Positions 7,551 to 49,721 of a stretch of 64,000 nucleotides of DNA are shown here, in pieces. The stretch is from an uncultured Ignavibacteriota bacterium (GTDB lineage Bacteria > Bacteroidota > Ignavibacteria > UBA10030 > UBA8401): assembly GCA_903861125.1 (NCBI GenBank), contig CAIOTF010000017.1, positions 248,001 to 312,000 on the forward strand, written 5' to 3'. A program made the translations under genes and the position numbers. The notes beneath the pieces were generated by a model. It made no database searches, was not told the origin of the DNA, and worked only from the letters and a program-made list of their open reading frames with translations. Numbering within the stretch: the first letter of the stretch is position 1; each line of letters starts with the position of its first letter.

Positions 7551-7815
7551 AATGTCTTAGTGAAAAATTATAGATGTGGAAAGAATCGTAGTTTTTTGAA
7601 GATGAAAAATAAAGAGAATGATCATTATATATCCTCAAGAAGTATTCTAATACTACCGAAAGATTACCTGAAATTCCACGTACGGCAACTGCATCCAAAA
7701 TATTCAAATGAAAAATATACTGCAGAGTTTTGAACAATACGGATGTAATCAATGCGTATTCATTAACAACGAGTGAATTGCAACTCTTCCCGATTTTCTC
7801 TATTTTCCATAACGG

Positions 7816-8715
7816 ATGATGAAACAATACAGCCCACAGACAATAACGCTTCAACGACTTCTCGTACTCCATTCCGATTACGTGAACGACCTTCAGCGGA
7901 GGAATCCAGAAACGCGCGGAACCTATGAACGCACGCTACGGGAATTTATGCGCTGGGTCCGTTTAGAACCCGAATTGGAATGCTCAGCGAAGGAGATCGA
8001 ACGGTATAAAAAATTCCTCCTCACAAAACGTAAACTTTCACCTGTTTCTGTAACGATGTACCTATCATCCGTCAGAAAATTCTTTGACTATCTGGTCGGT
8101 AGGGGTGTTCTTGTGAGTAATGCGGCGAAACTTGTAAAAGGCGGCGCTCCTATACAACAGCATACGCGCAAGAGCATCACCATACAGGAAGTGCAGGCGC
8201 TGATCCAGGCGATTGAACGGAAGGACGAGATCGGATTCAGGGATTTTGCCGTTGTGAAATTGATGATCAGCTGCGGATTGTCGGAGATCGAACTCATCAG
8301 AGCCGACATAGGGGATTTGAAGACAAAAAAAGGTGCCATGTCGATCGCCCTGCAATTAAAGGGGATGAAAACGAAGGAAAGAACAATCACAGTTCCCCAG
8401 GATGTGAAAGATGCACTGAAAAGCTATCTTGTATTCCGTACGAATGCAAAAGATACTGAACCTCTTTTTATGAGTGCCGGCAACAGAACCCGCGGACAGC
8501 GAATGACATCCCGCGGATTGCGCGAACGGATCAATTTCTATCTTGAAAAATCGGGAGTGAAGAACGGCGAGGTACGGAAGATCACCGCTCTTTCGCTTCG
8601 GTTGACAGCCATTACGATGATGGCACAGCAAGGTGCAAGTATTGATGAGATTAAAAAGAAATTCCATATCGTAAAAGAATTGACCGTCCGGCGTTATCTG
8701 GAGAATTTAATTTGA
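7816..8715 (+). CDS. Tyrosine recombinase-like protein, probably catalytically impaired
   Basis: A 299-residue XerC/XerD-sized protein. An N-terminal SAM-like core-binding domain (residues about 10-105) is followed by a catalytic-like domain. Aligning by eye to XerD: the first Arg (GLRxSEL) is Ser156 in CGLSEIEL; the beta-hairpin Lys is kept (KGMKTKER, about 182-188); the HxLR His is Leu259 while Arg262 is kept; the His of the LGH motif is Ile285; the nucleophilic Tyr is kept (RRYL, Tyr294). Three of the six catalytic positions are thus replaced. It may bind DNA without full recombination activity, or be decaying. It begins with two consecutive ATG codons at 7816 and has no adjacent phage or transposon genes. 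Confidence 0.75.
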   Translation: MMKQYSPQTITLQRLLVLHSDYVNDLQRRNPETRGTYERTLREFMRWVRLEPELECSAKEIERYKKFLLTKRKLSPVSVTMYLSSVRKFFDYLVGRGVLVSNAAKLVKGGAPIQQHTRKSITIQEVQALIQAIERKDEIGFRDFAVVKLMISCGLSEIELIRADIGDLKTKKGAMSIALQLKGMKTKERTITVPQDVKDALKSYLVFRTNAKDTEPLFMSAGNRTRGQRMTSRGLRERINFYLEKSGVKNGEVRKITALSLRLTAITMMAQQGASIDEIKKKFHIVKELTVRRYLENLI

Positions 8716-8739
8716 CGCTGAGAAGAAAGATCCGTCATC

Positions 8740-9198
8740 GTGATCAGTAAAACGTACATCGCTCTTGCAGCCATATGTATTGGATGCGGTTCCACCGGAT
8801 CAAACATCGGCAATCGCGAAACCAAGATAGAATCCGGAACGTGGCTGGTGTATGAAGGAAGTCTGCCGTGTGCCGATTGCAGTGAGATAAAAACACGCCT
8901 GGAATTGTTTATTGATTACTCGAATCCGGAGCCTCCTTACATCATTAAGCAGGCTTATATCGGAAAAAAAGATGAGGACCAGGCTGTGATCGATCATGGG
9001 TTCTACGGGATACTGAAAGAATCAATTCATGGTAAGGAAGCAACGGTGTACGAACTGTCAGGGAACAGTCCTGAAAAAAGAATGTTTCTTTTGCGTATCA
9101 ATGATGATACACTTCAATTGGTTGACCAAAACAGAAATTCCATCAGATCGGATATACCGTACCGGTTGCTACATACTGAAACAATAAAAGAACGATAG
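8740..9198 (+). CDS. NlpE-like lipoprotein
   Basis: A 152-residue protein starting at GTG 8740 behind a purine-rich AGAAGAAAGA. The N terminus is a short hydrophobic signal followed by CIGCGSTG, a slightly non-canonical lipobox (Cys rather than Leu at -3), so outer-membrane lipoprotein anchoring is likely. The segment [19 protein letters not shown] (residues about 38-56) is the NlpE N-terminal signature, a CxxC motif in a small beta domain. E. coli NlpE senses envelope and copper stress and contacts CpxA. Here only the N-terminal domain is present, and its partner is unknown. Confidence 0.75.
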
Positions 9199-9289
9199 GC
9201 AATATCGAATAAGATTATTTGTTCCATTGAAATATAATCCGGAATACGCACTGGGCGAAATGCCGGCCATTAATAAATTACAAAAGACA

Positions 9290-11899
9290 ATGAGCTATAA
9301 CTTTACAGAAATAGAAAAAAAGTGGCAGGAGTATTGGGAAAAGAATCACACGTATGCAACGGGTGACAATACTTCCGGAAAAAAAATATACGTACTCGAT
9401 ATGTTTCCATATCCGAGCGGTGCCGGTCTGCATGTCGGTCATCCGGAAGGGTATACTGCAACGGATATCTTCACCCGTTTTCAGCGTTTGAATGGCGTTA
9501 ATGTGCTCCATCCGATGGGATGGGATGCATTCGGTCTTCCGGCGGAACGGTATGCGATGCAGACCAACATCCATCCATCCGTCACCACCGAACAAAATAT
9601 CAACAACTTTCGCCGCCAGATAAAAAGCCTCGGGCTAAGTTATGACTGGGACCGGGAAGTGAATACGACCGATCCGCACTATTATAAATGGACACAGTGG
9701 ATTTTTTTGAAAATCTATGATTCGTGGTATGATGTCCGTGTAAAAAAAGCGCGCCCCATTCCGGAATTAATTAGCGAATTTGAAAGCTACGGCTGTTCAA
9801 AGATCGACTGCACAATATATAGCAGCAATAATGATAGCTGCTTTACTGCTGATGGATGGAAGGCGATGAACGAGCTTCAGCGACAGACTGTGCTGAAGGA
9901 TTTTCGTCTTGCCTTCATCTCAGAGATTCCGGTCAACTGGTGCGATAAATTGGGTACCGTTCTCGCCAACGAAGAGGTCGATGAGTGGGTGGAAAAAGGA
10001 TACACCGTGGAACGAAGACCGATGCGGCAATGGATGATGCGCATTACTGCGTACTGCGAACGGCTGCTGGAGGATGCAGCTACACTGGATTGGCCGGCAT
10101 CAACAGTGGAGATGCAGAAAAATTGGATCGGACGTTCAGAAGGGGCCGAGGTAGATTTCGCCGTAGCGAAGAGTACTGAGAACATCAGAGTCTTTACGAC
10201 TCGTCCTGATACGATTTTCGGTGCTACGTATATGGTGCTTGCGCCGGAACATCCGCTCGTTGATTCGATAACGATAGCCGAAAAAAAATCAGAGGTTGAC
10301 GAATACCGCAGACGGGCAACATTGAAATCCGAACTTGATCGAGGAATCGACAAGGATAAAAGCGGTGTGTTCACAGGCGGATATGCGGTGAACCCGGCAA
10401 ATGGAAAGCAGATTCCTGTGTGGATAGCCGATTATGTGCTGATGGGATACGGTTTCGGCGCTATCATGGCGGTACCTGCACACGATGAACGCGATTGGGA
10501 ATTTGCAAAAAAATATGATCTTCCCATCATCGAAGTTGTTGCATCGCCGCACAACGTAAATGAAAAAGTATTCGTAGCAAAAGATGAGAAGTGCGTTAAT
10601 TCGTCCAACAGCGAAGTCTCACTCAATGGACTTTCCTACAACGATGCGTTTGCAAAGATCGCATTGTGGTTTGAAACAAAAGGGATAGGCAGAAAAAAAA
10701 TAAATTTCAAACTTCGTGACTGGCTTTTTTCCCGTCAGCGATATTGGGGAGAGCCGATTCCGATCATTCATTGGGACGACGGAACAATGAGTGCCATTGA
10801 TGTAAAAGAGCTTCCGCTTGTGCTTCCGGAACTGCAAAAATTTCAGCCCAGCGGCACGACGGAATCTCCTCTTGCACTTGCTGTGGATTGGGTGAATGTC
10901 GTTGATCCCAAGAGCGGGAAAAAAGGGAGGCGTGAAACCAACACGATGCCGCAGTGGGGCGGAAGCTGCTGGTATTATCTGCGCTATATCGATCCGAAGA
11001 ATGACACGATCTTCTGCGATCTTGAAAAACAAAAATATTGGATGCCGATTGATCTTTATGTGGGTGGTTCGGAACATGCCGTTCTGCATCTGATGTATGC
11101 ACGATTCTGGCATAAGGTGCTGTTCGATCTTGGATATGTTACCACGGCCGAACCGTTTATGAAATTGCGTCATCAAGGGATCATCCTCGGCGAAAATTCG
11201 AAAAAAATGTCAAAGTCGCTGGGAAATGTTGTTAATCCGGACGATGTAACAAAAGAGTACGGCGCGGATGCACTCCGATTGTTTGAAATGTTCATGGGGC
11301 CTCTTGAAGAGATGAAACCGTGGAGCACAAAGGGCGTAGAAGGTGTCTTCCGGTTCCTGAATCGTGTCTGGCGGTTATATGTTGCGGAAGATGAATCCAT
11401 AAGCAAGAGCATTGCTGATGTAGAACCATCGGCGGATTTTTTGCGTCTGTTTCATCAGACGGTGAAAAAAGTTACGGAAGATATTCCTGCGCTGCGTTTC
11501 AATACCGCGATTTCGCAAATGATGATCTTCATGAACGAAGCCTATAAGCAGGAACAACTTCCGAAGAAACTGATGCAGGATTTTCTGATCGTCCTTGCGC
11601 CGTTTGCTCCGCACATCACGGAAGAATTATGGCACCGGATGGGAAATTCGGGATCGCTCTTCACGAACGCGCGTTGGCTGCACCATGATGAAGCGTTGAC
11701 GGTAATGGATCAGGTAGAGGTTGTTGTTCAGGTGAATGGAAAGATACGGGCAAAGTTCAATGCACCTACCGATACGGCCGAAACCGATCTGAAAAATATG
11801 GCGCATGCAGAACCGAACGTACGGCTCCATCTGGACGGGAAACAGATCGTGAAAGAGATTGTGGTGAAAAATAAGCTGGTGAATATAGTCGTAAAATAG
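9290..11899 (+). CDS. leuS: Leucyl-tRNA synthetase
   Basis: Charges tRNA-Leu with leucine in the cytoplasm. Start chosen at ATG 9290 ([16 protein letters not shown]), the conserved LeuRS beginning. Upstream in-frame TTG 9227 and ATG 9260 would add a non-conserved extension. The class I signatures are HVGH (residues 48-51) and KMSKS (639-643). The CP1 editing domain lies between them, with the [18 protein letters not shown] segment. An insertion around residues 145-205 (ending [27 protein letters not shown]) is one I associate with Bacteroidota LeuRS. At 869 residues it is full length. The C-terminal domain ends [11 protein letters not shown] and [14 protein letters not shown] as expected. Confidence 0.97.
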
Positions 11900-38688: not shown

Positions 38689-39513
38689 CTACGCTTCTAA
38701 AAACATCTGTCCGAGTATACCATCCCAATCAGCATTCGGGAAGTGCCGGTGAAAATCAGGCACAAGTTCGCCTCCGTCGGCAAGTGTTATTCCAACACCG
38801 CTTGTTGCCATTGATATCTGCAGGCGTTCCATTTCCCTCAAAATCCAATTCGGTACTTCGTCGGTTTTCAGAAGATGATCAGTAACTTTTTTTGAATCAT
38901 TTGCTTTTACTTTTAGGTACCATCCTTTTTCGGAATCACCCTGTTCAATCACTTCACCGTCGATTGGGGAGAGAAGACGAATGTCCATATTAGCTTTCTT
39001 TACGACCATACCTTTTCCATTGACCGATAAGCGCGTTCCGATAGGCGGAAGTTCAACTGAATAGGTGCTGCCGATAATTCGCGTGCCGAAATCATCAATG
39101 CCGATCTTGTACGTTCCATCATCCTCTTGCTGAACCCACGTATGTCCCCGATGATACATTCTGTACGGCGGCATTGTGAATCCATACACTTCAAATTGCA
39201 GGAGGGGAGTTTTCGTCTGTTTCGATATCAGCAGTGGATGCACAGAACATGATCTGCAATCGAATCCGTGATCGCATACTCGGTGTTTCACGTCGCCATT
39301 CATTTCGTGGCGGCAGACTTTCATTGCCGGAGACAGGTCTGCAAAATCGGATCGCCATTGGATTTCATCCATGGTCCGATTCTGTTCGGCCCGCTGCGTT
39401 CGCTTCACTGCTACGAACACTGTGGATACTACAACTGCAAAAACGGTAAAGAAAATTGATAAAAATGTAATGTGAAATGCTGTCCAATGAAATTCATATA
39501 CCCAGGGTAACAT
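38689..39513 (-). CDS. Membrane-anchored GcvH-like protein with four-Cys motif and ADGG tail
   Basis: Last gene of the leftward operon. Start at ATG 39513 (GGAGAAG about 5 bases upstream); the open frame continues back to 39621 without good support. The 274 residues contain one N-terminal membrane helix (about 10-36), a four-Cys segment (Cys67, 80, 86, 89 in CRHEMNGDVKHRVCDHGF-DCRSC), and a GcvH-like lipoyl-type domain (about 120-205, GHTWVQ...KIGIDDFGTRIIG...SPIDGEV). Lys173 falls where the lipoylated lysine of GcvH would be. The tail has EMERLQ then GITLADGGEL (245-248 ADGG) and a C-terminal W..IL..MFL. A role in electron or sulfur-carrier transfer to the adjacent complex is inferred, not shown. 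Confidence 0.8.
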   Translation of the reverse strand: MLPWVYEFHWTAFHITFLSIFFTVFAVVVSTVFVAVKRTQRAEQNRTMDEIQWRSDFADLSPAMKVCRHEMNGDVKHRVCDHGFDCRSCSVHPLLISKQTKTPLLQFEVYGFTMPPYRMYHRGHTWVQQEDDGTYKIGIDDFGTRIIGSTYSVELPPIGTRLSVNGKGMVVKKANMDIRLLSPIDGEVIEQGDSEKGWYLKVKANDSKKVTDHLLKTDEVPNWILREMERLQISMATSGVGITLADGGELVPDFHRHFPNADWDGILGQMFLEA

Positions 39514-39535
39514 AGCTTCTCCGTATTGATCGTTA

Positions 39536-40876
39536 TTATGACTTTGTTGAAACAAACTTATTGAGCAGATCCGAAATAAACTTCGGCTGCCATGATTTCT
39601 TTGCATTTCCACTGTCTGCAAATTCCTGCTGAGAAAGTTCTCCGTTTAATTGTGCCAACTCACGTTCTTGTGGGAATATTACGGAATAGCGGTATGTGAA
39701 TGAATAGAGAAGCATACCGTACGCTACAACAAAAAGGAATGTTGCAACTTCTTCCCAACTTGGCGCATAGGTTAAGAAATCGTCAAAAGGCAGTGTCGGC
39801 AGAGCCAGCGTCTGTATCGTCATGACAAAACGGTTGAGCATGATTCCGGTGCAAACCAGGAATCCTGCACCAAGAAGAATTTTTCTATTCTCACGCAAAC
39901 GGCTGCTGAGAAGAATCAGTGCCGGAATGAGACCTAAAATGACGATCTCAGTAAAAAGTATCCACGTTCCAAATGATTGTGTTGCATAAAATTCGAATGC
40001 CGGAAAACCGTTTCCGGGCGACGTACTGTTGATCCAGAAAAGTGTATCGATCGATTTCAGCAGAACGTATGCAATCAGCATTGTTCCGGAGACCTTGCCG
40101 AGGAATTTATACACTTCCGGTTTCACTAACTGTTTTCTGGTGATCTTCTCTACGAGCCAAGTTGTAAGCATGATAAAACTTGGGCCTGCAGCCGCAGCTG
40201 AGATCACGAATAAAAAGAATGTTGACGGCCAGATTCCAAGTTCCTCTCTAAATGCGAACGGACGACCGCGCAGCACACCAAACAGACCGCCGAGCGATCC
40301 CTGATGAAAGAACGAAAGGAATGTTCCGATTCCTGCAAACACAGGCATCAATTTGTGCAGTTCAAATTCGAACACCAGAAATTTCGGTATCGAACGTAAT
40401 TGCCTGTTCTTGAGAATGATAGGAATGTATTCGATAAATAGGACGATCAGATAGCATGTTAGGCAGAATGTCACTTCTGTAAGCATGGAATGGACATTGG
40501 GATGCCAGAACGTAAACCAGGCACGAATCGGCTGTCCAACATCTACTGCCAGCACAAGAATTGCGCCGCTGTAGCAGATAAGTCCGATAACGACAGCACT
40601 GTTGATTACCGCTTTCAATTCCTTCCGGCGTAGAATGTAAAGAAGAAATCCGGTGAAGAATGCGCCGGCTCCAAGAGCTATAACGGTAAGATCCAGAAAT
40701 ATCCATATACCGAAAGCAAAACGGTTGTCCATGTTTGTATGGAACAATCCTTCCGCTAAACAGAGATAGATCGCATAGATGCCGAGTGATAATAATGCGA
40801 TCCATGGGAATATCCAGATCAAAAATTTCGTGAACGAGGTTCGTTGTAACCCGCGCGGGATCAATATTTTATCCAT
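39536..40876 (-). CDS. NrfD-family quinone-interacting membrane subunit (QrcD-like)
   Basis: Start at ATG 40876 behind a strong GGAGGAAA; the open frame back to 40909 overlaps the upstream gene. The 446-residue protein has about ten membrane helices, in the NrfD/PsrC pattern (for example LVLAVDVGQPIRAWFTFWHPN and the FSFFHQGSLGGLFGVLRG region). Such subunits take electrons from or give them to menaquinone on the periplasmic side and pass them to a ferredoxin subunit. Gene order with the ferredoxin, molybdopterin and cytochrome genes is the same as qrcD. It overlaps the ferredoxin gene by 8 bases. Confidence 0.87.
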   Translation of the reverse strand: MDKILIPRGLQRTSFTKFLIWIFPWIALLSLGIYAIYLCLAEGLFHTNMDNRFAFGIWIFLDLTVIALGAGAFFTGFLLYILRRKELKAVINSAVVIGLICYSGAILVLAVDVGQPIRAWFTFWHPNVHSMLTEVTFCLTCYLIVLFIEYIPIILKNRQLRSIPKFLVFEFELHKLMPVFAGIGTFLSFFHQGSLGGLFGVLRGRPFAFREELGIWPSTFFLFVISAAAAGPSFIMLTTWLVEKITRKQLVKPEVYKFLGKVSGTMLIAYVLLKSIDTLFWINSTSPGNGFPAFEFYATQSFGTWILFTEIVILGLIPALILLSSRLRENRKILLGAGFLVCTGIMLNRFVMTIQTLALPTLPFDDFLTYAPSWEEVATFLFVVAYGMLLYSFTYRYSVIFPQERELAQLNGELSQQEFADSGNAKKSWQPKFISDLLNKFVSTKS

Positions 40877-41663
40877 GGATTTCCTCCTGTGCGAGACCGT
40901 TGGCTGCATGTGTGCGGGTCAACGTTTTTTCAGTCATTTCGCGGACCCATTTTTTTTCGGAATGATAATGAACCTTCGGTTCCGTCCCGAGTCGGGAAAG
41001 GAACCGGAATGTGTTTTCACTTTTTGCCAGTTGTGCAACTGCCGTTGTTTCGTCGATCAGGTCGCCGAATGTGATTGCTTTGTTCGGACATGATTCAACG
41101 CAAGCGGGAATATATTCCGCAGGATCGATCTCTCTGTTGCCCTGTGATGCTGCTTTTTGTTTTGCAGCGTGGAGTCGTCCGTGGCAGAAATTGCACTTTT
41201 CCACAACACCGCGCATGCGTGGTGCCACATCGGGATTAAGCTGTTGCTTCATCCCTTCGGTCCATTCCGGATCCCACCAATTGAAATACCGCGCATGATA
41301 CGGACACGCCGTCATGCAGTAACGGCATCCAAGGCATCGCTGCGGAATTTGTCCTACAATACCGGTTGTCGGATCAACGTCAACTGCATTTTGCGGACAA
41401 ACAGTCATACACGGGGTTTCTTTCTCGCATTGCTGGCAGAACATCGGCACAAACACAGATTCGCTTTTTGGAAATTGTTCTTTATTCGAGACCGTGGAGA
41501 TATTCATCCAGGTAATACCGTTGCGTTTATTCATTTTTTCTACAGCAGGAGGGACATTATTCTCAACAGCACACGCAACAGCGCATGCTCCGCAGCCGTT
41601 GCATTTGTCGAGATCAATCACCATTCCATACTTAAATTTTTTATCAGTCATTGTTTCCATCAT
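40869..41663 (-). CDS. Ferredoxin subunit with four [4Fe-4S] motifs (QrcC-like)
   Basis: A 264-residue iron-sulfur protein with no signal of its own. Cys groups: CNGCGACAVAC; CQQCEKETPCMTVCP; CLGCRYCMTACP; and CNFC plus CVESCP further on. Together they give 16 ligands for four clusters, as in DmsB/PsrB/QrcC. Its job is to carry electrons between the NrfD subunit and the molybdopterin-like subunit. ATG 41663 directly follows the TAA of the upstream gene (41666-41664), indicating translational coupling; ATG 41660 and 41651 are alternatives. Without a signal it would be co-exported with its Tat partner. Confidence 0.9.
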   Translation of the reverse strand: MMETMTDKKFKYGMVIDLDKCNGCGACAVACAVENNVPPAVEKMNKRNGITWMNISTVSNKEQFPKSESVFVPMFCQQCEKETPCMTVCPQNAVDVDPTTGIVGQIPQRCLGCRYCMTACPYHARYFNWWDPEWTEGMKQQLNPDVAPRMRGVVEKCNFCHGRLHAAKQKAASQGNREIDPAEYIPACVESCPNKAITFGDLIDETTAVAQLAKSENTFRFLSRLGTEPKVHYHSEKKWVREMTEKTLTRTHAANGLAQEEIHG

Positions 41664-43769
41664 TTACGCTTTCAGAAGTGTTGCGGTGGTAATTCTCCAT
41701 GTTCCATCGTTGTTGACTTCACAGAGATTTAGAATATTGTTTGCCGTTAAATGCAGCGGGGTTTGACTGCCGTTCGGTTGCGGGCCGACCGAAGCTTCAA
41801 TAACACCCTGCCTGATTGCCGAATCGATTTTAATGCGGACCTTCATCGGGCCATTACTTGTTGAAATTGTAGCCGGTTCTTCTTGTGAAAGACCAAGTTG
41901 TTGTGCCGTTAAGGGATTGATCGACACTATTCCATTCACGCTTCGCAGTTCTGTCTCCTGAAATACTTTGCTGAGAATAGGGGACATCTGTGATGCCGAT
42001 GTAGTTCCGCGCCATCCGTGTACGATCATTGTAAGTTCTGCAATTTCTTTTGCCGGCTCTGTTGCCGTTTTCAGCGCGAACGTGAATTTTTTCGGCATTG
42101 TTTGCCGTGTTTTTACATCCATCCATTGTGCGCCGGTTGTTAAAATGTTCCATAATTCGCCGGTTGTTGGAATATCGGCAACATTGATCGTCCGTTGATC
42201 GGAGTAAGAAAAGACAGTTCCGCTTTTTTTGGAATGGATTGATTCCGTTTTTGCTTTCAGCAATTCTTCGTATGTAGGAATAGCCAACGAATAATTCAAA
42301 CTGGTGCTTAATGCCTTGATCACGTCGATAGGTTCAGTAGTAAATTCCTGTTTTTTCAACAGAGGTACTGATAGAGAAAATCCGGCAACACTATTTCCGG
42401 AAGGTGTAGGAATATCGCACAGTGTTTCCAAATGACCGGAAGACGGTATGAGATAATCTGAATGAGCCGAGAGTTCATTTAGGATCGGTGACAAACTGAT
42501 TACAAAATTTTTGCCGGGAATCAGTTTCTTTTCAATCAGTTTCCAGGGAAGTGCATATCCTGATTCGGCTCCGTCAACAATAAGCACTTCGATCGAATGA
42601 TCGGGGATATCGGACCATCGGCTTATTTCGGAACTTTGCTTATCGCTTGAATTTGTATTGCGCGAAATAATGCCGCCGGTTTTTCCTACACTGCCGATTA
42701 ACAGATTCAGTGATGCGATAGCTTTTTCAGTTTCATAATCGAACGGACCGCCGCCCGGATCTGCACCGCTCAGCACTATCGCCGATTCCGCATGGATAAG
42801 TTCACTGGCAATCGCCGTGATCACTCCGGGTTCAATTCCAGTAACGGAAAAAGTTTTTTCCGGACTGAAGTTTTGCACAATATTTTTGAAACCTGCTGCA
42901 TCAACTGCAGAACGATTTACATGTTGAGCAATGCGGCTATCGTTGATTAAAACATATGCGATACTTAATGCTGCTGTCTTTTCGGTTCCCGGCTTCAGTG
43001 CAATCCACTTGTCGGACTGCATCGCTGTTCGGGAATATCTGCTGTCGAACTGAATGAATTTTGCAGTGCGTGAATTTCGAAGTGTGGTCATTCGTCCTGG
43101 TGTTCCCCAGCCGTCAAGCAGCGGAGCACCGAACGAAAGGATCAATTTTGTATTTTCAAAGTCAAAGCCAAACGATTCTGATTTTCGGTCCATCATTATT
43201 TGCAATGCAGTGATGGTGGCATCTTCGCACGAAGGGGAGGTCAGATAAACACCGTTCGTCGTCTTTGCAACGAAGGTACGATAGATCTCGGAAAGAACGC
43301 GGGTCGGCTGTTGGTCGATGACTGCAACTGTGCCTGTTGAATTTTTAATTCGTAATGCAATTTCATCCAGCGCATTTTGAAGAGAAACCGCGGTCATTTT
43401 GCTCTTGCCGGATTTTCCTTCAAACTTGTGCGGATGAACAATGCGTAACGGATGATGCGCCATGTGGTGCCCAGCTAATCCGTTTACACAAAGTGTTCCA
43501 TTCGTGATCGGATGATGTTGAACTCCGCTGATAAAATACGGCATCCCTGAAACGCATTGTGCTTTAATTGCACATCCGCCTCCGCACAAAGTGCAGTGCG
43601 AAAATGCAGTTGAAATCGGTCCATGTGCGAGTTTCGGTATCAGCGACCAATTCTGCGTCCAAATTGCTGAATCATCCAGCATTTTCCATGGAAGCGGGGA
43701 TAAGATGACGCCGAGAATTCCGCCGCCGGTGAATTTTAGAATATCTCTTCGTGTGATTGTCTTTGACAT
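41664..43769 (-). CDS. Tat-exported molybdopterin oxidoreductase-like subunit (QrcB/PsrA-like)
   Basis: A 701-residue protein of the DMSO-reductase superfamily. It begins with a twin-arginine signal (TRRDILK, Arg7-Arg8). Cys59, 62, 66 and 94 (CTLCGGGC...TLCVNG) form the N-terminal [4Fe-4S] motif. Later segments (DSRYSRTAMQSDKWIALKPGTEKT, SGADPGGG, YLIPSSGHLE) fit the family. A Cys in LTSPSCEDAT is in the zone of the Mo-ligand Cys of PsrA, but I cannot show it binds Mo; QrcB is known to lack Mo. The length is close to QrcB. The substrate (quinone-linked or a sulfur compound) is unresolved. Confidence 0.87.
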   Translation of the reverse strand: MSKTITRRDILKFTGGGILGVILSPLPWKMLDDSAIWTQNWSLIPKLAHGPISTAFSHCTLCGGGCAIKAQCVSGMPYFISGVQHHPITNGTLCVNGLAGHHMAHHPLRIVHPHKFEGKSGKSKMTAVSLQNALDEIALRIKNSTGTVAVIDQQPTRVLSEIYRTFVAKTTNGVYLTSPSCEDATITALQIMMDRKSESFGFDFENTKLILSFGAPLLDGWGTPGRMTTLRNSRTAKFIQFDSRYSRTAMQSDKWIALKPGTEKTAALSIAYVLINDSRIAQHVNRSAVDAAGFKNIVQNFSPEKTFSVTGIEPGVITAIASELIHAESAIVLSGADPGGGPFDYETEKAIASLNLLIGSVGKTGGIISRNTNSSDKQSSEISRWSDIPDHSIEVLIVDGAESGYALPWKLIEKKLIPGKNFVISLSPILNELSAHSDYLIPSSGHLETLCDIPTPSGNSVAGFSLSVPLLKKQEFTTEPIDVIKALSTSLNYSLAIPTYEELLKAKTESIHSKKSGTVFSYSDQRTINVADIPTTGELWNILTTGAQWMDVKTRQTMPKKFTFALKTATEPAKEIAELTMIVHGWRGTTSASQMSPILSKVFQETELRSVNGIVSINPLTAQQLGLSQEEPATISTSNGPMKVRIKIDSAIRQGVIEASVGPQPNGSQTPLHLTANNILNLCEVNNDGTWRITTATLLKA

Positions 43770-43820
43770 ATTGTTTTCCGGTAAAAAAATCAGAAGGGTT
43801 CACCGTGAAGTGAACTCTAT

Positions 43821-44402
43821 TTATTTATGACATTCAATACAGCCGTCCCGCCGTCCGTTGTCGCCGTGGCATCGTACGCATTTACTCATTTTCATCCCTT
43901 CCCACGAATTGGACGAAAAACCTGAAATATTCGCTCCCCAAATATCCCTGCTGTAACCGGATATCCTGTTCGTCTGTTGAGTCCGTAAAAATTCGGAACT
44001 TCCGTGCTGACCATGACACTCTTCGCATTTTAATCCACCAAGTTTAACGTGCGGTGCATGGGAAAAAAATGCATTATCCGGCTGCCGTGAGTACACGAAC
44101 CAGGGAATCTCTTTGTTTGGTGTTATGTAATCCTCAACCATCCGTTTTTCATTTTTTGATTCACCGATCGGAGAGGAATGACATTCGGCGCATTTTGCTA
44201 TTGCAGGAATACCTTGAAAACGACCTTCCGAGTTGGTTGAATGACAGTCTTCACATGCCATTCCTCCTTTTTCGCCTGTATGAGCAATATGACTGAACTG
44301 CAACGGCTGTTGATTGTTCCGATACAGAGCATAAGGAAAAACATACCAGCCGATGATTAATCCGAATAGTATGCCGCCGATTGAAATGATCTTTGATCTC
44401 AT
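43821..44402 (-). CDS. Pentaheme cytochrome c, membrane-anchored (QrcA/ActA-like)
   Basis: A 193-residue protein. An N-terminal hydrophobic helix (ISIGGILFGLIIGWYVFPYALY) serves as signal anchor. Five CXXCH sites follow at residues 50-54 (CEDCH), 71-75 (CAECH), 126-130 (CEECH), 175-179 (CVRCH) and 188-192 (CIECH). Extra His (HIAH, HAPH) can be distal ligands. It resembles the QrcA and ActA cytochromes: QrcA has six haems and ActA five, so this one is intermediate. It would accept or donate electrons on the periplasmic face. It overlaps the upstream gene by 4 bases (ATGA). Confidence 0.92.
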   Translation of the reverse strand: MRSKIISIGGILFGLIIGWYVFPYALYRNNQQPLQFSHIAHTGEKGGMACEDCHSTNSEGRFQGIPAIAKCAECHSSPIGESKNEKRMVEDYITPNKEIPWFVYSRQPDNAFFSHAPHVKLGGLKCEECHGQHGSSEFLRTQQTNRISGYSRDIWGANISGFSSNSWEGMKMSKCVRCHGDNGRRDGCIECHK

Positions 44403-45355
44403 TTGTATGATTTCCAGAGGGTTAGGGGTGAAAAAAAATCGTTGTAAAGTTTTAGCAGTTCTTCACGCGTCAATTGATGCACAAATCCTTTTTGGAAAAA
44501 TCCGCCGTCGGCCATCAGCACCGCGCCGCGCATATCGGGTTGTGCTGATATCTGGTGTGCAAGTGATGTCATTCGTTCCATTTCCTGTTTCATCCAGGGT
44601 TGAACGTCGCAGCCGGAGATCAATCCTTCAATTTTGTTGCTTCTGCTTTTTGTTTTTTCTTCCGTTGTCTCGAATAGCCACCCAACCGTATACGGGTCGG
44701 CCATGATCTTGTCCGGATTTGTCCGCAGGTATGTATTTGCCCGTGTGATGTTCATGTGCAACGGAAAAACAAATTGAAGATCAACACCGCCTACAGAGAA
44801 TGAAATTGCCGGACGATGATATCCTTTTGTCGTAACAAAGGTGATGTGATCGACTGTTCCGAGAGCTTTTGCAAGGAATGCATCTATACCGATATGGCAG
44901 ACGCCATCATTCCCGATTTCCATCCACATATGATTGGGTGTGTAGAAAAGATTTCCTGGACATGTAACATCATCAATTGTGTGATCGGGGCAGTGAGCAA
45001 GCATATCCGACGAACCGGTAATTGTTACAGATTCATTCGGCTGTGCAAGTCCCAGATATAATTCGCAGTATTTGTGACTGTCCGTACCGCATTGCGATAG
45101 AACGGATTCGGTGTAGGGAATATATTTTGTAACTGCTGCGGCAGTACAGTATTGAACAAGCGATTCATGAAGGAAGGGGCAATGATCGATGCTCGGACGA
45201 TCTTCCATGTGCTGCTTTGCAGCAGGACAGTTAACGTATTCACGAGACGAGCACCGTTCATTCTCCGGCTGTTCTGAGAGTCGGACGATCATTTTTCTGT
45301 ACGCAGAGGCACGGCAGAATTTTACCTGTGCTTCTCTTAAAAATGGACATCGCAT
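44399..45355 (-). CDS. GcvH-like protein with duplicated four-Cys module and ADGG tail
   Basis: A 318-residue soluble protein. Residues 1-100 are an internal duplication: RCPFLREAQVKFCRASA (Cys3, Cys14) with Cys35 and Cys43, and again HCPFLHESLVQYCTAAA (Cys59, Cys70) with Cys89 and Cys97. Spacing is nearly identical (11, 19-21, 8), suggesting two metal or iron-sulfur sites. Residues about 140-230 look GcvH-like (HMWMEIGNDG, CHIGIDAFLAKALG), but the lipoyl-lysine zone (FVFPLHMNITRAN) has no lysine. The tail has EMERM and LMADGGFF, as in the gene at 38689. It is preceded by GAGAGG. No catalytic role is evident; an electron-transfer or assembly role is inferred from context. Confidence 0.75.
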   Translation of the reverse strand: MRCPFLREAQVKFCRASAYRKMIVRLSEQPENERCSSREYVNCPAAKQHMEDRPSIDHCPFLHESLVQYCTAAAVTKYIPYTESVLSQCGTDSHKYCELYLGLAQPNESVTITGSSDMLAHCPDHTIDDVTCPGNLFYTPNHMWMEIGNDGVCHIGIDAFLAKALGTVDHITFVTTKGYHRPAISFSVGGVDLQFVFPLHMNITRANTYLRTNPDKIMADPYTVGWLFETTEEKTKSRSNKIEGLISGCDVQPWMKQEMERMTSLAHQISAQPDMRGAVLMADGGFFQKGFVHQLTREELLKLYNDFFSPLTLWKSYK

Positions 45356-45384
45356 ATTATACCTCTCGCTTCATTGTTGCTGCT

Positions 45385-45666
45385 TCAATTCTCAGAACGT
45401 TGAATGTTCTTATTGTCTTCGTCTATTCCGTATTTTTCTTTTTCATCGATCACTTTGCCGCCGTCTGCCATGGTAATGCCCAGGTCCTGCAGCATAAATG
45501 AATGATCATCCTGCAATTGGGGAACGCGTACTTTACTGCGAACATCTGCAAAGAGTTCTTTTGCGATAACAACGCCGACTGCGGCAATGCATACCAATGT
45601 TACAATACCTAAACCTGCATTTGTGATAGTCAGCCAAAGTGTTTCCGAATCCATTGAAGTAAACAT
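45385..45666 (-). CDS. Small one-helix membrane protein with ADGG tail
   Basis: First gene of the leftward operon, 93 residues, with a strong site TAAGGAGATA just before ATG 45666. One membrane helix (about 14-35, AGLGIVTLVCIAAVGVVIAKELF) is followed by a polar tail containing GITMADGGKV (ADGG at 67-70). This matches the GITLADGGEL of the gene at 38689 and LMADGGFF of the gene at 44399. It may anchor or recruit the others to the complex, by inference. I do not recognise a family. Confidence 0.7.
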   Translation of the reverse strand: MFTSMDSETLWLTITNAGLGIVTLVCIAAVGVVIAKELFADVRSKVRVPQLQDDHSFMLQDLGITMADGGKVIDEKEKYGIDEDNKNIQRSEN

Positions 45667-45738: not shown

Positions 45739-45754
45739 GACAAAAGCCGTGCCT
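45739..45754 (-). promoter_or_regulatory. Sigma54-like -24/-12 element for the leftward operon
   Basis: On the minus strand, AGGCACGGCTTTTGTC matches the sigma54 consensus TGGCACG-N4-TTGCA. The GG and the following G are correctly 10 bases apart, but GT stands where the invariant GC is expected. It is about 70 bases before the ATG at 45666. The mismatch lowers confidence; the divergent sigma54 activator gene raises it. Confidence 0.45.
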
Positions 45755-46100: not shown

Positions 46101-46136
46101 TTATTCATCAATAGAAAATACTTGAAAGCAAAATAA
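46089..46136 (+). CDS. Possible 15-codon leader peptide coupled to the kinase
   Basis: ATG 46089 lies 8 bases after a strong GGAGG (46076-46080). It would encode MNDALFINRKYLKAK, ending at TAA 46134-46136, whose last A is the first base of the kinase ATG. The kinase itself has no visible ribosome site, so re-initiation from this leader would make sense. Against it: the same bases make a good sigma54 element, and if transcription starts there, the leader start would not be in the message. Confidence 0.35.
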   Translation: MNDALFINRKYLKAK

Positions 46137-47797
46137 TGAATCTTAAACAAATAGCGTTGCGACTTCCGCCTAAAAAGATCTCGCAAAAACTTATCCTCTC
46201 GTTTACGGTTATCATGACGATTGTAGGAATTATCTCCAGTTATTTTCATGTGAAGATTCAGGAAAATCAATTGGTGCAAACAATGATGATTGGGGCCGAT
46301 CAGTTATCCGGTAGTATTTCGAGTGCAACGTGGCATGCCATGCTTGCAGACCAGCGCGAGGCAGCATATCAAACAATGGAAACGATCGCACAAAAACAAG
46401 GGATCACGCGGATACGTATCTTCAATAAAGAAGGACGAATCATGTTCTCAACGGTGAAATCGGATACCGGTATTGTAGATAAATATGCAGAAGCATGCTT
46501 TATGTGTCATTCTGCCGAAACGCCGTTAGTGAAAGTAGATGTTCCAACACGAGCGCGCGTTTACAAAACGCCTGACAAGCACCGTACACTTTCTATGATC
46601 ACTCCCATATACAATGAACCTTCTTGCAGTCAGGCAGATTGTCATGCTCATCCCAAATCGCAAAATGTGCTTGGTGTTCTCGATGTTTCCATGACGCTCG
46701 ATGTTGTAGACGCAGAAATGGCGCAGCTTCAATGGCGTGTCTTCATCATTTCATTCTCGATTGTTGCTATCATGAGTCTGTTCATTATTTATTTTACAAA
46801 ACATTTTATTGATGCTCCCATCCAGCACCTGATTGCCGGAACACATGCAGTAAGTGAAATGATGCTCGACAAACCAATTGTCATTGAATCGAGTGAAGAA
46901 CTTGGCGAGTTGGCGAAGTCGTTTGATATTATGCGTGTGCGGCTGAAATCGGCACTGGAAGAAATCAACGAATTCACCGAAGGATTGGAGCGCAAAATTC
47001 GTGAACGGGCCGACCAATTGAAAATTGCTCATCAAAAATTATTACAAAGCGACCGGCTTGCATCGCTCGGACAGCTTTCGGCCAGCGTAGCGCATGAGAT
47101 CAACAATCCTGTTTCCGGTGTTCTCAATCTTGCAATGCTGATGCAGCGTATTATGAAGGAAGATGGTGTACCCAAGGAACGGGTCGAAGAGTTCCGAAAA
47201 TATCTTTCTCAGGTTGTGACCGAAACTGCGCGCGTTGGAAGGATCGTACAGGATCTGCTTGCGTTCTCTCGCCGTTCTAAGCCGTTCCGCGCTAAGATCG
47301 ATTTCAATACCATGATCAGATCCACATTAAATCTATTGGACCACAAATTGAAATTGTCCGCCGTTAAGGTTGAATTGGATCTGATGCACGATCTTCCCAC
47401 TGTCCATTGCGATGGTTCACAAATGCAGCAGGTTGTGATCAATTTAATTATGAATGGAGCGGAAGCAGCGCAGGGTAAACCTGATGGAAAAGTTAAAGTG
47501 AAAACAATCGTTAATGATAAGCGCGATCAGCTATTGTTTTCGGTATGCGATAATGGCGATGGAATACCAGATGAGAATCTTTCAAAGATATTCAGTCCGT
47601 TCTTTACCACGAAGGGTGAAGGAAAAGGGGTAGGGCTTGGACTTGCGGTGGTCTTCGGTATTATCGAGGCGCACAAAGGGGATATCGACGTGAAGAGCGA
47701 ACTGACTGTTGGAACGACGTTCGTCGTCACACTTCCGTTTGACGAAACAAAAAAACCGGAATCTCCTCAAGAAGAAAAATTAGGAACACTGGCGTGA
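46136..47797 (+). CDS. Sensor histidine kinase with c-type-haem-like periplasmic motifs
   Basis: A 553-residue membrane kinase. Two membrane helices (about 18-37 and 202-221) enclose a periplasmic domain. That domain contains CFMCH (residues 121-125), a standard haem c site, and CSQADCH (164-170), a CX4CH variant. A HAMP linker (about 222-275) follows. The kinase core has His320 in SVAHEINNPVSGV, the N box NLIMNGAEAA, GDGIPDE, and FTTKGEGKGVGLGLAV. It probably senses redox state, O2 or NO through haem and phosphorylates the regulator encoded two genes downstream. It overlaps the metzincin gene by 4 bases. Confidence 0.9.
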   Translation: MNLKQIALRLPPKKISQKLILSFTVIMTIVGIISSYFHVKIQENQLVQTMMIGADQLSGSISSATWHAMLADQREAAYQTMETIAQKQGITRIRIFNKEGRIMFSTVKSDTGIVDKYAEACFMCHSAETPLVKVDVPTRARVYKTPDKHRTLSMITPIYNEPSCSQADCHAHPKSQNVLGVLDVSMTLDVVDAEMAQLQWRVFIISFSIVAIMSLFIIYFTKHFIDAPIQHLIAGTHAVSEMMLDKPIVIESSEELGELAKSFDIMRVRLKSALEEINEFTEGLERKIRERADQLKIAHQKLLQSDRLASLGQLSASVAHEINNPVSGVLNLAMLMQRIMKEDGVPKERVEEFRKYLSQVVTETARVGRIVQDLLAFSRRSKPFRAKIDFNTMIRSTLNLLDHKLKLSAVKVELDLMHDLPTVHCDGSQMQQVVINLIMNGAEAAQGKPDGKVKVKTIVNDKRDQLLFSVCDNGDGIPDENLSKIFSPFFTTKGEGKGVGLGLAVVFGIIEAHKGDIDVKSELTVGTTFVVTLPFDETKKPESPQEEKLGTLA

Positions 47798-48363
47798 AAG
47801 CAATATATCTGGCGCAGTTTGGAACTATTGATGAAGAACTGATGTCTGCGCTTGAAGTGTGTGCGTGGCAGATTTTCGGCTATGATGTGAAACGAATGCC
47901 GAATCTTCCTGATCCTTCGTATGCATTGGATACAAAAACGAACCAGTACAGTTCCGTCCTTCTATTAAAAAATCTGATAAGCCAGGTTCCGAAAGATGCA
48001 GTGAGAGTGTTAGGTGTTACAAACCACGATCTTTTTATACCGATGCTCAGTTTTGTATTCGGTCACGCACAACTGAATGGTCCAGCGGCAGTGATTTCGC
48101 TGGCTCGATTGCATCAGAGTTTTTATCAGCTGCAGGAAAATAAGCAGCTGTTGATCCATCGTATGATGAAAGAAGCCGTTCATGAACTCGGACACACGTT
48201 CGGCTTGATCCATTGCTCGGACAGTCGCTGTGCTATGTCACTGTCGAATGCGATACAACAAGTAGATAAAAAAACAGAGGAGCTATGTGCAAATTGCTCT
48301 ATACTTCTCGAAGATTCCACTAAACAAAAAAGCCGTGAAAACGGTATGGAGATGCAGCGATGA
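47794..48363 (+). CDS. Archaemetzincin-like zinc protease
   Basis: A 189-residue protein. The zinc site HELGHTFGLIHC (His130, His134, His140, Cys141) is followed by SDSR-C-A-M and, 17 residues later, CANC. This is the archaemetzincin pattern with a second, Cys-rich zinc site. No signal peptide, so it is probably cytoplasmic. Archaemetzincins have aminopeptidase activity on some substrates, but their bacterial role is poorly known. Here it lies exactly between a kinase and its regulator, overlapping both by 4 bases, so a regulatory role in that pathway is plausible but unproven. Confidence 0.88.
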   Translation: MKAIYLAQFGTIDEELMSALEVCAWQIFGYDVKRMPNLPDPSYALDTKTNQYSSVLLLKNLISQVPKDAVRVLGVTNHDLFIPMLSFVFGHAQLNGPAAVISLARLHQSFYQLQENKQLLIHRMMKEAVHELGHTFGLIHCSDSRCAMSLSNAIQQVDKKTEELCANCSILLEDSTKQKSRENGMEMQR

Positions 48364-49721
48364 AAAAATTATGGAACATTATGGTCGTAGACGATGAAGA
48401 AGTGATGCGGGAATCTCTCGCGGCATGGCTGCGTGAGGACGGATATTCCGTAGATACATCCGAATCAGGAAAAGAGGCGATCGAAAAAACAAAATTAAAA
48501 ACGTACGCCATCTATTTCATCGATCTCAAAATGCCAGGAGGGCACGACGGCATAGAGACGATGATGGAAATCCGGAAGATACAGCCGGAAGCATCCATCA
48601 TCATCGTTACGGCGTATGCAACGGTCGATACGGCGATCACAGCAATGAAAGAAGGAGCGCAGGAATATATTGTAAAGCCGTGCAATCCGGAGGAGATATC
48701 ATTACTGGTCAGCCGCATCATTAAGATCAAGAATCTGCAGCGGGAGAATTCCATTCTTCGGAAGAAACTGACGAAGCAGTATAGCTTCTGCGATATTATC
48801 AGTAAAAATCCGAAGATGATGGAGATTTTTGGATTGATCAAAGAAGTTGCGAGTCTTCGCAGCACCGTTATGATACAGGGTGAAAGCGGAACGGGGAAGG
48901 AACTGATAGCACGCGCCATCCATTATTCCGGAGACAGGGCAGCAAAACCATTCATCGGCGTATCCTGTGCCGCATTGACCGAATCGCTGCTGGAATCCGA
49001 ATTGTTCGGCCATGAAAAAGGATCCTTCACCGGAGCCACCGGACAAAAGAAAGGGAAGTTCGAGATTGCGGAAGGGGGCACAATTTTTCTTGATGAGATC
49101 GGCGATATCTCGCCGAAGCTTCAACTGAACTTACTGCGGATCCTGCAGGAGAGAAATTTTTACCGCGTAGGAGGATCGGAACAGATAAATGTGGATGTCC
49201 GCGTTATTGCTGCAACAAATAGGAATCTTGAAGAAGCGGTGCACGAAGGAAAATTCCGCGACGATCTTTTTTACCGGTTGAACGTGATTAACATCCATCT
49301 TCCTGCGCTGAGGGACCGCAAAGAGGATATTCCGTTGCTTGTCCATAATTTTATTGAACGCATCGGTCCTGAACTGGGAAGGGAAGTCACCGATATCTCT
49401 GAAGGTGCTTTGAAAATATTGTTAAACCACAATTGGCCCGGTAACGTGCGTGAGATCGAAAATGCAGTGGAGCGTGCTATTGTAACATGCAAAGCTAAAA
49501 TTTTAACGGAGGATGATTTCGCATTTCTTGCGAATCACGGTAACGAAAAGAAACAATGGAATATTCCTTCCGAATTAACTCTCGAGGAGATCGAGAATCA
49601 GGCGATAACGGCAACGCTTCAGCGTACGCACGGTAACATTAAGGAAGCATCGGCCATCCTCGGCGTTGACCGTTCAACATTATACGACAGGATAAAAAAG
49701 TATAACCTTCCGAGAAATTGA
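48360..49721 (+). CDS. Sigma54-dependent response regulator (NtrC family)
   Basis: A 453-residue three-domain regulator. The receiver domain has Asp11-Asp12 and phosphoacceptor Asp55 (IYFIDLKMPG). The AAA+ domain has Walker A GESGTGKE, the sigma54-contact loop GSFTGA (Ser where Ala is usual), and Walker B GGTIFLDEIGD. The C-terminal Fis-type helix-turn-helix reads IKEASAILGVDRSTLYDRIKKY. When phosphorylated by the upstream kinase it should remodel sigma54 polymerase. The likely targets are the divergent respiratory operon and its own operon, which both have -24/-12-like elements. Confidence 0.94.
   Translation: MKKLWNIMVVDDEEVMRESLAAWLREDGYSVDTSESGKEAIEKTKLKTYAIYFIDLKMPGGHDGIETMMEIRKIQPEASIIIVTAYATVDTAITAMKEGAQEYIVKPCNPEEISLLVSRIIKIKNLQRENSILRKKLTKQYSFCDIISKNPKMMEIFGLIKEVASLRSTVMIQGESGTGKELIARAIHYSGDRAAKPFIGVSCAALTESLLESELFGHEKGSFTGATGQKKGKFEIAEGGTIFLDEIGDISPKLQLNLLRILQERNFYRVGGSEQINVDVRVIAATNRNLEEAVHEGKFRDDLFYRLNVINIHLPALRDRKEDIPLLVHNFIERIGPELGREVTDISEGALKILLNHNWPGNVREIENAVERAIVTCKAKILTEDDFAFLANHGNEKKQWNIPSELTLEEIENQAITATLQRTHGNIKEASAILGVDRSTLYDRIKKYNLPRN

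Follow-up and report, generated by a model that had tools for sequence, protein, structure and literature searches.

The 64,000-nt window analysed here (the whole stretch introduced above, from an uncultured Ignavibacteriota bacterium) carries seven minus-strand open reading frames (ORFs) at 38689-45666. They raise the question of which respiratory complex the four core genes encode and what the three additional genes beside them contribute. An earlier note, made from the letters of the sequence, had proposed an undescribed variant of the menaquinone reductase Qrc with a lipoyl-like or Cys-based electron carrier. The cluster is confirmed at its coordinates, in the order TM1-G6-QrcA-B-C-D-G7, as one tight operon with spacings from an 8-nt overlap up to about 51 nt:

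45385-45666, minus strand: TM1, 93 aa, a one-helix protein with the sequence LGITMADGG and a soluble tail that is predicted to be cytoplasmic
44399-45355, minus strand: G6, 318 aa, a soluble protein of pseudo-GcvH type that has two CPFL-type four-Cys repeats on its N-terminal side and MADGG on its C-terminal side
43821-44402, minus strand: QrcA, 193 aa, a membrane-anchored pentahaem cytochrome c
41664-43769, minus strand: QrcB, 701 aa, a Tat-type, molybdopterin-oxidoreductase-like subunit
40869-41663, minus strand: QrcC, 264 aa, a four-cluster ferredoxin-type subunit with 16 conserved Cys
39536-40876, minus strand: QrcD, 446 aa, an NrfD-type integral membrane quinone subunit
38689-39513, minus strand: G7, 274 aa, with an N-terminal transmembrane (TM) helix, a Cys module, a pseudo-GcvH domain and LADGG

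QrcD starts at an ATG with a good ribosome-binding site and overlaps QrcC by 8 nt, while G7 starts at 39513, the 310-aa version in the ORF list beginning too early. The arrangement does not reflect chance, because almost all complete related loci, from several phyla, have the seven genes in this order.

All four core subunits score best against Qrc models, in the A-B-C-D order that the earlier note had likened to qrcABCD. QrcA (208.4 bits against a cut-off of 180, NCBIfam NF041781) and QrcD (585 bits against 570, NF041784) are recognised members of their families, which the note had not established. QrcC (347 bits, NF041782) and QrcB (330 bits, NF041783) fall under their cut-offs of 400 and 440 but still have Qrc as their best family, and the runner-up families score far lower (HmcC at 121 bits for QrcD, DsrO at 162 for QrcC and PhsA at 155 for QrcB). 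The assignment rests on these profile scores in place of a direct comparison with canonical Qrc. All 16 quinone-site and proton-path residues of Desulfovibrio vulgaris QrcD, taken from the literature and mapped by offset (12-13) instead of an aligned D. vulgaris sequence, are identical in the window; they include the equivalents of D70, Y110, S138 and Y150, mutation of which abolishes function (PMC8076601, PMC13059093). By the same mapping, Y115 of QrcC corresponds to the essential Y113 of D. vulgaris (PMC13059093) and is invariant in 75/75 sequences. In QrcB there is no conservation at the position of the Mo-ligand Cys; the subunit keeps a C-x2-C-x3-C-xn-C motif of the FS0-like kind, as do 63 of 71 homologues. 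QrcA has exactly five CXXCH sites, not six, as had been noted before, and so do 63/64 homologues. That the core is a genuine Qrc-type complex is well supported at the level of sequence, and the conserved residues indicate with high confidence that it would act as an electrogenic cytochrome c/menaquinone oxidoreductase.

The likeness to canonical QrcABCD of sulfate-reducing Desulfobacterota thus comprises the same four subunits in the same order, the identical QrcD residues and a QrcB that apparently lacks a Mo site. Canonical QrcA, however, has six haems, and because the window-type QrcA has five the complex is filed as a Qrc variant. Furthermore, D. vulgaris QrcB is reported to lack redox cofactors whereas the window type keeps the FS0-like motif, and the window type comes with three additional conserved genes and the regulatory triad described below.

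The association of these additional genes with the core was examined in two phylum samples that were searched with the NCBIfam QrcD model, independently of the accessory genes: 296 genomes of the window's phylum and 199 of the phylum of the Ca. Sulfopaludibacter metagenome-assembled genome (MAG) CO124. QrcD occurs in ten genomes of the first sample, and G7 at full length (>340 bits, the next match reaching 113) and G6 at full length (>370 bits, the next reaching 90) were found in exactly these ten, with G6 in 0/286 others. Full QrcD occurs in three genomes of the second sample; full-length G7 is again confined to these three, and two of their loci have the whole operon and the triad. With both samples pooled, G7 is present in 13/13 QrcD genomes and 0/482 others. 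The accessory genes therefore do accompany the core, and the scattering or absence among relatives that the earlier note had named as the counter-case is not what these genomes contain. A named scan of 80 loci, which is biased because its query was built from seven-gene loci, covered Ignavibacteria/Bacteroidota, Acidobacteriota, KSB1, Eisenbacteria, Kryptoniota and one Myxococcales MAG, the loci coming mostly from MAGs. Here G7 is present wherever enough downstream sequence is available (77/77), and TM1 together with G6 in 55 of the 56 loci with enough upstream sequence; one locus (L032) has no recognisable QrcA in its upstream sequence. TM1, G6 and G7 are near-obligate companions of the core. 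Two loci, L047 and L094, represent natural deletions of accessory genes. When the neighbourhoods were clustered, only the seven genes and the triad emerged as frequent partners; the remaining clusters looked like antisense or overlapping ORFs. A literature search found no paper describing these accessory genes.

G6 (32.1 bits) and G7 (47.0 bits) both exceed the Pfam GCV_H cut-off of 22.2 bits, and their H-protein fold is further supported by confident AlphaFold2 models (pLDDT 90 and 89, respectively) with target-normalised TM-scores to E. coli H-protein of about 0.77-0.84 (0.77 for G7). The one-helix protein and two GcvH-like proteins of the earlier description are thus real. The likeness to the glycine cleavage H-protein is restricted to the fold of the central domain: G6 and G7 lack the lipoyl lysine and have extra Cys modules and xDGG, and G7 also has a membrane anchor, so that the label 'glycine cleavage H protein' is misleading for proteins of this type. 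At the lipoyl-lysine position, G7 has N in the window and K in only 5/68 homologues, and G6 has G in 49 of 57. The C-x12-C-x5-C-x2-C module of G7 is invariant (79/79) and recurs with identical spacing in GcvH-like proteins of HybAB-type operons; G6 has eight conserved Cys, with a double CPFL-type repeat, judged by pattern, in 54/58. A Pfam scan matched these modules to no Fe-S family, and they are probably metal-binding.

An xDGG motif is common to TM1 (58/59), G6 (MADGG) and G7 (LADGG in 74/79). In TM1, residues N16, G63, T65, M66, A67, D68, G69 and G70 are conserved in 57-59 of 59 sequences, and DGG is the only strongly conserved part outside the helix. Lys and Arg are more numerous after the helix than before it in 67/68 G7 and 21/21 TM1 sequences, with the opposite trend in QrcA as a control, and G6 has no TM helix. 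A point beyond the earlier note is that TM1 and G7 are anchored N-terminally; the soluble parts of all three proteins are predicted to be cytoplasmic, opposite the haem/Fe-S arm formed by QrcABC.

The conserved locus extends further than the note had described, to a triad of histidine kinase (HK), archaemetzincin (AMZ) and sigma-54 response regulator (RR) at 46136-49721, with a promoter-like site before the operon:

46136-47797, plus strand: HK, a sensor histidine kinase with haem c-type CX2CH and CX4CH motifs in the sensor region
47794-48363, plus strand: AMZ, a Zn protease of the archaemetzincin family whose active-site motif is complete
48360-49721, plus strand: RR, an NtrC-type sigma-54 response regulator (REC-AAA+-HTH)
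45740-45754, minus strand: a site resembling a sigma-54-type -24/-12 promoter, AGGCACGGCTTTTGT, which lies 88 nt upstream of TM1

The triad is divergent and upstream in the nearest relatives of the window and convergent and downstream in most other loci; among the 30 Qrc loci with enough flank, HK and RR are present in 21 and AMZ in 20. HK matches the Pfam families HisKA and HATPase_c, with a weak Mcp40H-20 match in the sensor and no strong match to any named sensor family. Its homologues have CX4CH in 34/35 and CX2CH in 29/35 cases, and this combination of CX2CH with the unusual CX4CH suggests a two-haem sensor. Assignment as a nitric oxide-sensing sCache_heme kinase, which is defined by a PF11845 profile with CXXCH (PMC12889525), was rejected, PF11845 (DUF3365/Tll0287) not being among the Pfam matches of the window HK. 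AMZ scores 159.6 bits against NCBIfam NF033823 (cut-off 145) and 91 bits against Peptidase_M54. It has the complete HEXXHXXGXXHCX4CXM...CXXC motif, the full catalytic motif being found in 38/38 homologues from these loci, and differs from known archaemetzincins (peptidase M54) in being coupled by gene order to a histidine kinase and an NtrC regulator. The biological importance of archaemetzincin has been described as little known (PMC3427221), and a literature search found no paper linking it to histidine kinases. RR matches Response_reg (99.5 bits) and Sigma54_activat (237 bits). Upstream sites resembling sigma-54 promoters and scoring at least 9 of 10.4 occur in 37% of 57 loci but in 1% of mononucleotide shuffles, and the best sites cluster at -66 to -91 from TM1; the window site scores 8.4.

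The GcvH-like proteins are not confined to Qrc. A second locus in the window's genome (L027, G000:C5:1-9458) has two of them flanking HmcBC/HybAB-like genes; a haem-type HK, a sigma-54 RR and an archaemetzincin of its own come next. The NrfD-type and Fe-S proteins of this locus score under the HmcB/HmcC cut-offs. Related genomes have similar arrangements, some with a small TM-DGG protein. Such HybAB (Hyd-2)/HmcBC modules, found in the window's class and in Acidobacteriota, resemble the seven-gene operon in their NrfD-type and Fe-S subunits, GcvH-like proteins and HK/RR/AMZ genes, but lack QrcA and QrcB. In an alternative kit, ordered HybA-HybB-(cytochrome)-HK-(RR)-[TM-receiver-GcvH], a receiver and the GcvH-like domain form one fused protein, which has no DGG. 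The fusion matches both Response_reg (108.8 bits) and GCV_H (54.2 bits), and nine of nine Acidobacteriota ORFs that were read directly are of this kind. TM-receiver-GcvH fusions without DGG in HybA-HybB-HK operons are:

L108, 11499-12656
L109, 11388-12548
L116, 7300-8451
L139-L145, L151 and L152

Archaemetzincin is present in every genome with separate GcvH-like proteins (23/23 and 34/34 in two samples, 57/57 in total) and in none with the fusion only (0/15 and 0/17, total 0/32; Fisher p = 6e-11 and 7e-14 per sample, about 6e-25 pooled, relatedness being ignored). It also occurs in genomes that lack such proteins. One triad (L119, genome G180, 6701-10192) lies apart from any NrfD operon in the stretch that was read, with no separate GcvH-like protein detected.

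Taken together, these data point to a Qrc variant with a cytoplasmic regulatory or adaptor layer that is tied to two-component signalling and archaemetzincin. Such a regulated variant is probable because the partner proteins are predicted to face the cytoplasm and are tied to a signalling system, although with the accessory role included we would put it at about an even chance. A mechanism is proposed in which periplasmic QrcA with its five haems, QrcB as a scaffold that has no conserved Mo ligand, and QrcC as an Fe-S wire would pass electrons, so that c-type cytochromes of the periplasm could exchange them with QrcD-bound menaquinone; protons would be taken from the cytoplasm, as the conserved residues imply, and turnover would therefore be electrogenic. 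TM1, G6 and G7 would form a conserved cytoplasmic layer across the membrane from the QrcABC arm, G6 and G7 being retired H-proteins joined to four-Cys modules, with TM1 and G7 each held by one helix. This layer would link signalling to the quinone module's state: the haem-type HK could sense periplasmic redox or ligand state, RR would drive the seven-gene operon, and archaemetzincin would remove or process the xDGG proteins. We infer physical contact with QrcD, the binding of metal, signalling through phosphorylation or redox state, and cleavage of the DGG proteins by the protease. In a broader proposal, which we regard as rather doubtful, bacterial NrfD-type respiratory complexes (Qrc and HybAB/HmcBC-like) would share a dedicated signalling layer of retired H-proteins in the cytoplasm. 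Its two wirings would be interchangeable: in one the haem kinase would directly phosphorylate a receiver-GcvH fusion, and in the other archaemetzincin would control free xDGG GcvH-like proteins.

Several observations weigh against a regulatory layer of this kind. The tie to signalling comes from neighbourhood and from domain fusion in paralogous systems, not from the Qrc proteins themselves, and the triad is out of reach in 9 of the 30 Qrc loci, mostly those of Acidobacteriota; at L121 (genome G055, 6275-9829) it lies elsewhere than the HybAB and GcvH-like genes. TM1 and G6 are not strictly essential, because L047 lacks G6 (1231-2139; the locus is just under the length threshold) and L094 lacks both (upstream of 5440). 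The protease association depends on classing many matches by ORF length; direct reading covered 12 of the 32 fusions and, among the remaining genomes, a minority. Finally, the Cys modules could be redox clusters instead of structural sites.

This last point would suit a cytoplasmic electron branch, in which the four-Cys modules bind Fe-S clusters and exchange electrons with, for example, a soluble cytoplasmic donor. The Cys sets are as strictly conserved as in redox proteins (G7 79/79; G6 54/58), and the related DsrMKJOP complex provides a precedent with its cytoplasmic Fe-S subunit. We nevertheless consider such a branch unlikely: the operon has no b-type cytochrome gene, the modules resemble no Pfam Fe-S family, the alternative kit swaps the separate proteins for a receiver fusion, and QrcD has no cofactor for carrying electrons across the membrane (PMC13059093). 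Of the Cys-based carrier in the earlier note, a metal or redox site may hold, but on the predicted cytoplasmic side, and regulation instead of electron carriage is indicated because of the receiver-domain fusions and the HK, RR and protease neighbours. The lipoyl-based alternative, for which the H-protein fold, seen both in the sequences and in the structure models, would speak, fails because the lipoyl lysine is absent: the window proteins have another residue there, and neither family conserves the lysine. This alternative is refuted at the sequence level unless another lysine is lipoylated, and is highly improbable. What stands of the proposed undescribed variant is a Qrc-like complex with five-haem QrcA and co-occurring accessories, without the lipoyl-type carrier.

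Assembly or quality control is a further possibility, one that deserves some, if limited, credence. TM1, G6 and G7 would then serve as maturation factors, keeping hold of QrcD and taking up the periplasmic arm once it has folded, and archaemetzincin would cut at or near xDGG once assembly is done, like the hydrogenase maturation proteases. Their near-obligate co-occurrence with the core, the singular conservation of DGG in TM1 and the all-or-none distribution of a catalytically complete AMZ are consistent with this. However, in G7 and G6 a long and partly conserved stretch follows DGG, leaving no short removable tail; AMZ is found also in genomes that lack these proteins, and its gene lies beside HK and RR, not among the structural genes; and receiver-domain fusions would be odd for a chaperone. 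An ordinary enzyme of Psr/Phs or ACIII type, lying beside genes unrelated to it, could account for PhsA as the second-best match of QrcB, but is scarcely credible given the best scores of 4/4 subunits against Qrc models, the lack of a conserved Mo ligand and the co-occurrence of G7 without exception. Alternative complex III (ACIII) is characterized by a fused Mo-like/Fe-S ActB, two NrfD-type subunits (ActC and ActF), a pentahaem ActA and ActD/E; it was rejected on the separate QrcB and QrcC, the single NrfD gene and the model scores; Psr was rejected on the layout of the subunits and, again, the model scores. At G000:C42 there is a separate molybdopterin-family ORF of 1043 aa.

Qrc has so far been described as a four-subunit complex of sulfate reducers, and a 2021 survey of NrfD-like subunits placed QrcD in Deltaproteobacteria only (PMC8076601). 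The window type has a different host range, namely Bacteroidota (Ignavibacteria), Acidobacteriota, KSB1, Eisenbacteria, Kryptoniota and a Myxococcales MAG, and always has at least one extra gene. In D. vulgaris the four qrc genes alone restore function (PMC13059093), and on the strength of this published complementation the accessory genes would be dispensable in Desulfobacterota. The Qrc of MAG CO124 corresponds to locus L072, which has the full seven-gene operon and the triad; where the published account speaks of Qrc it names qrcABCD only, and it reports their transcription under anoxia (PMC10564751). Because the linkage is almost unbroken, the idea of an unrecognised layer of subunits or regulators can be tested directly, and the all-or-none link between archaemetzincin and GcvH-like proteins offers a lead to the bacterial function of archaemetzincin. 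If the reading with two wirings is true, it would provide bacterial substrates for this protease and a role in respiratory control.

A plasmid search for canonical Desulfovibrio Qrc gave distant NrfD-type proteins only, and a search of viral contigs found no Qrc relatives. No hydrogenase is linked to the seven-gene operon in the window's genome, where the large NiFe hydrogenase adjoins an apparent cytochrome b subunit and maturation genes (assigned by eye, not by profile). At L146 (5327-10733), an HK with an N-terminal ferredoxin-like Cys motif adjoins archaemetzincin and a sigma-54 RR, together with a CPFL-Cys and GcvH-like DGG protein but no NrfD gene nearby. Stand-alone G6 N-terminal Cys modules of 74-80 aa are found at the start of HybAB operons in L148 (7203-7427) and L149 (13575-13817).

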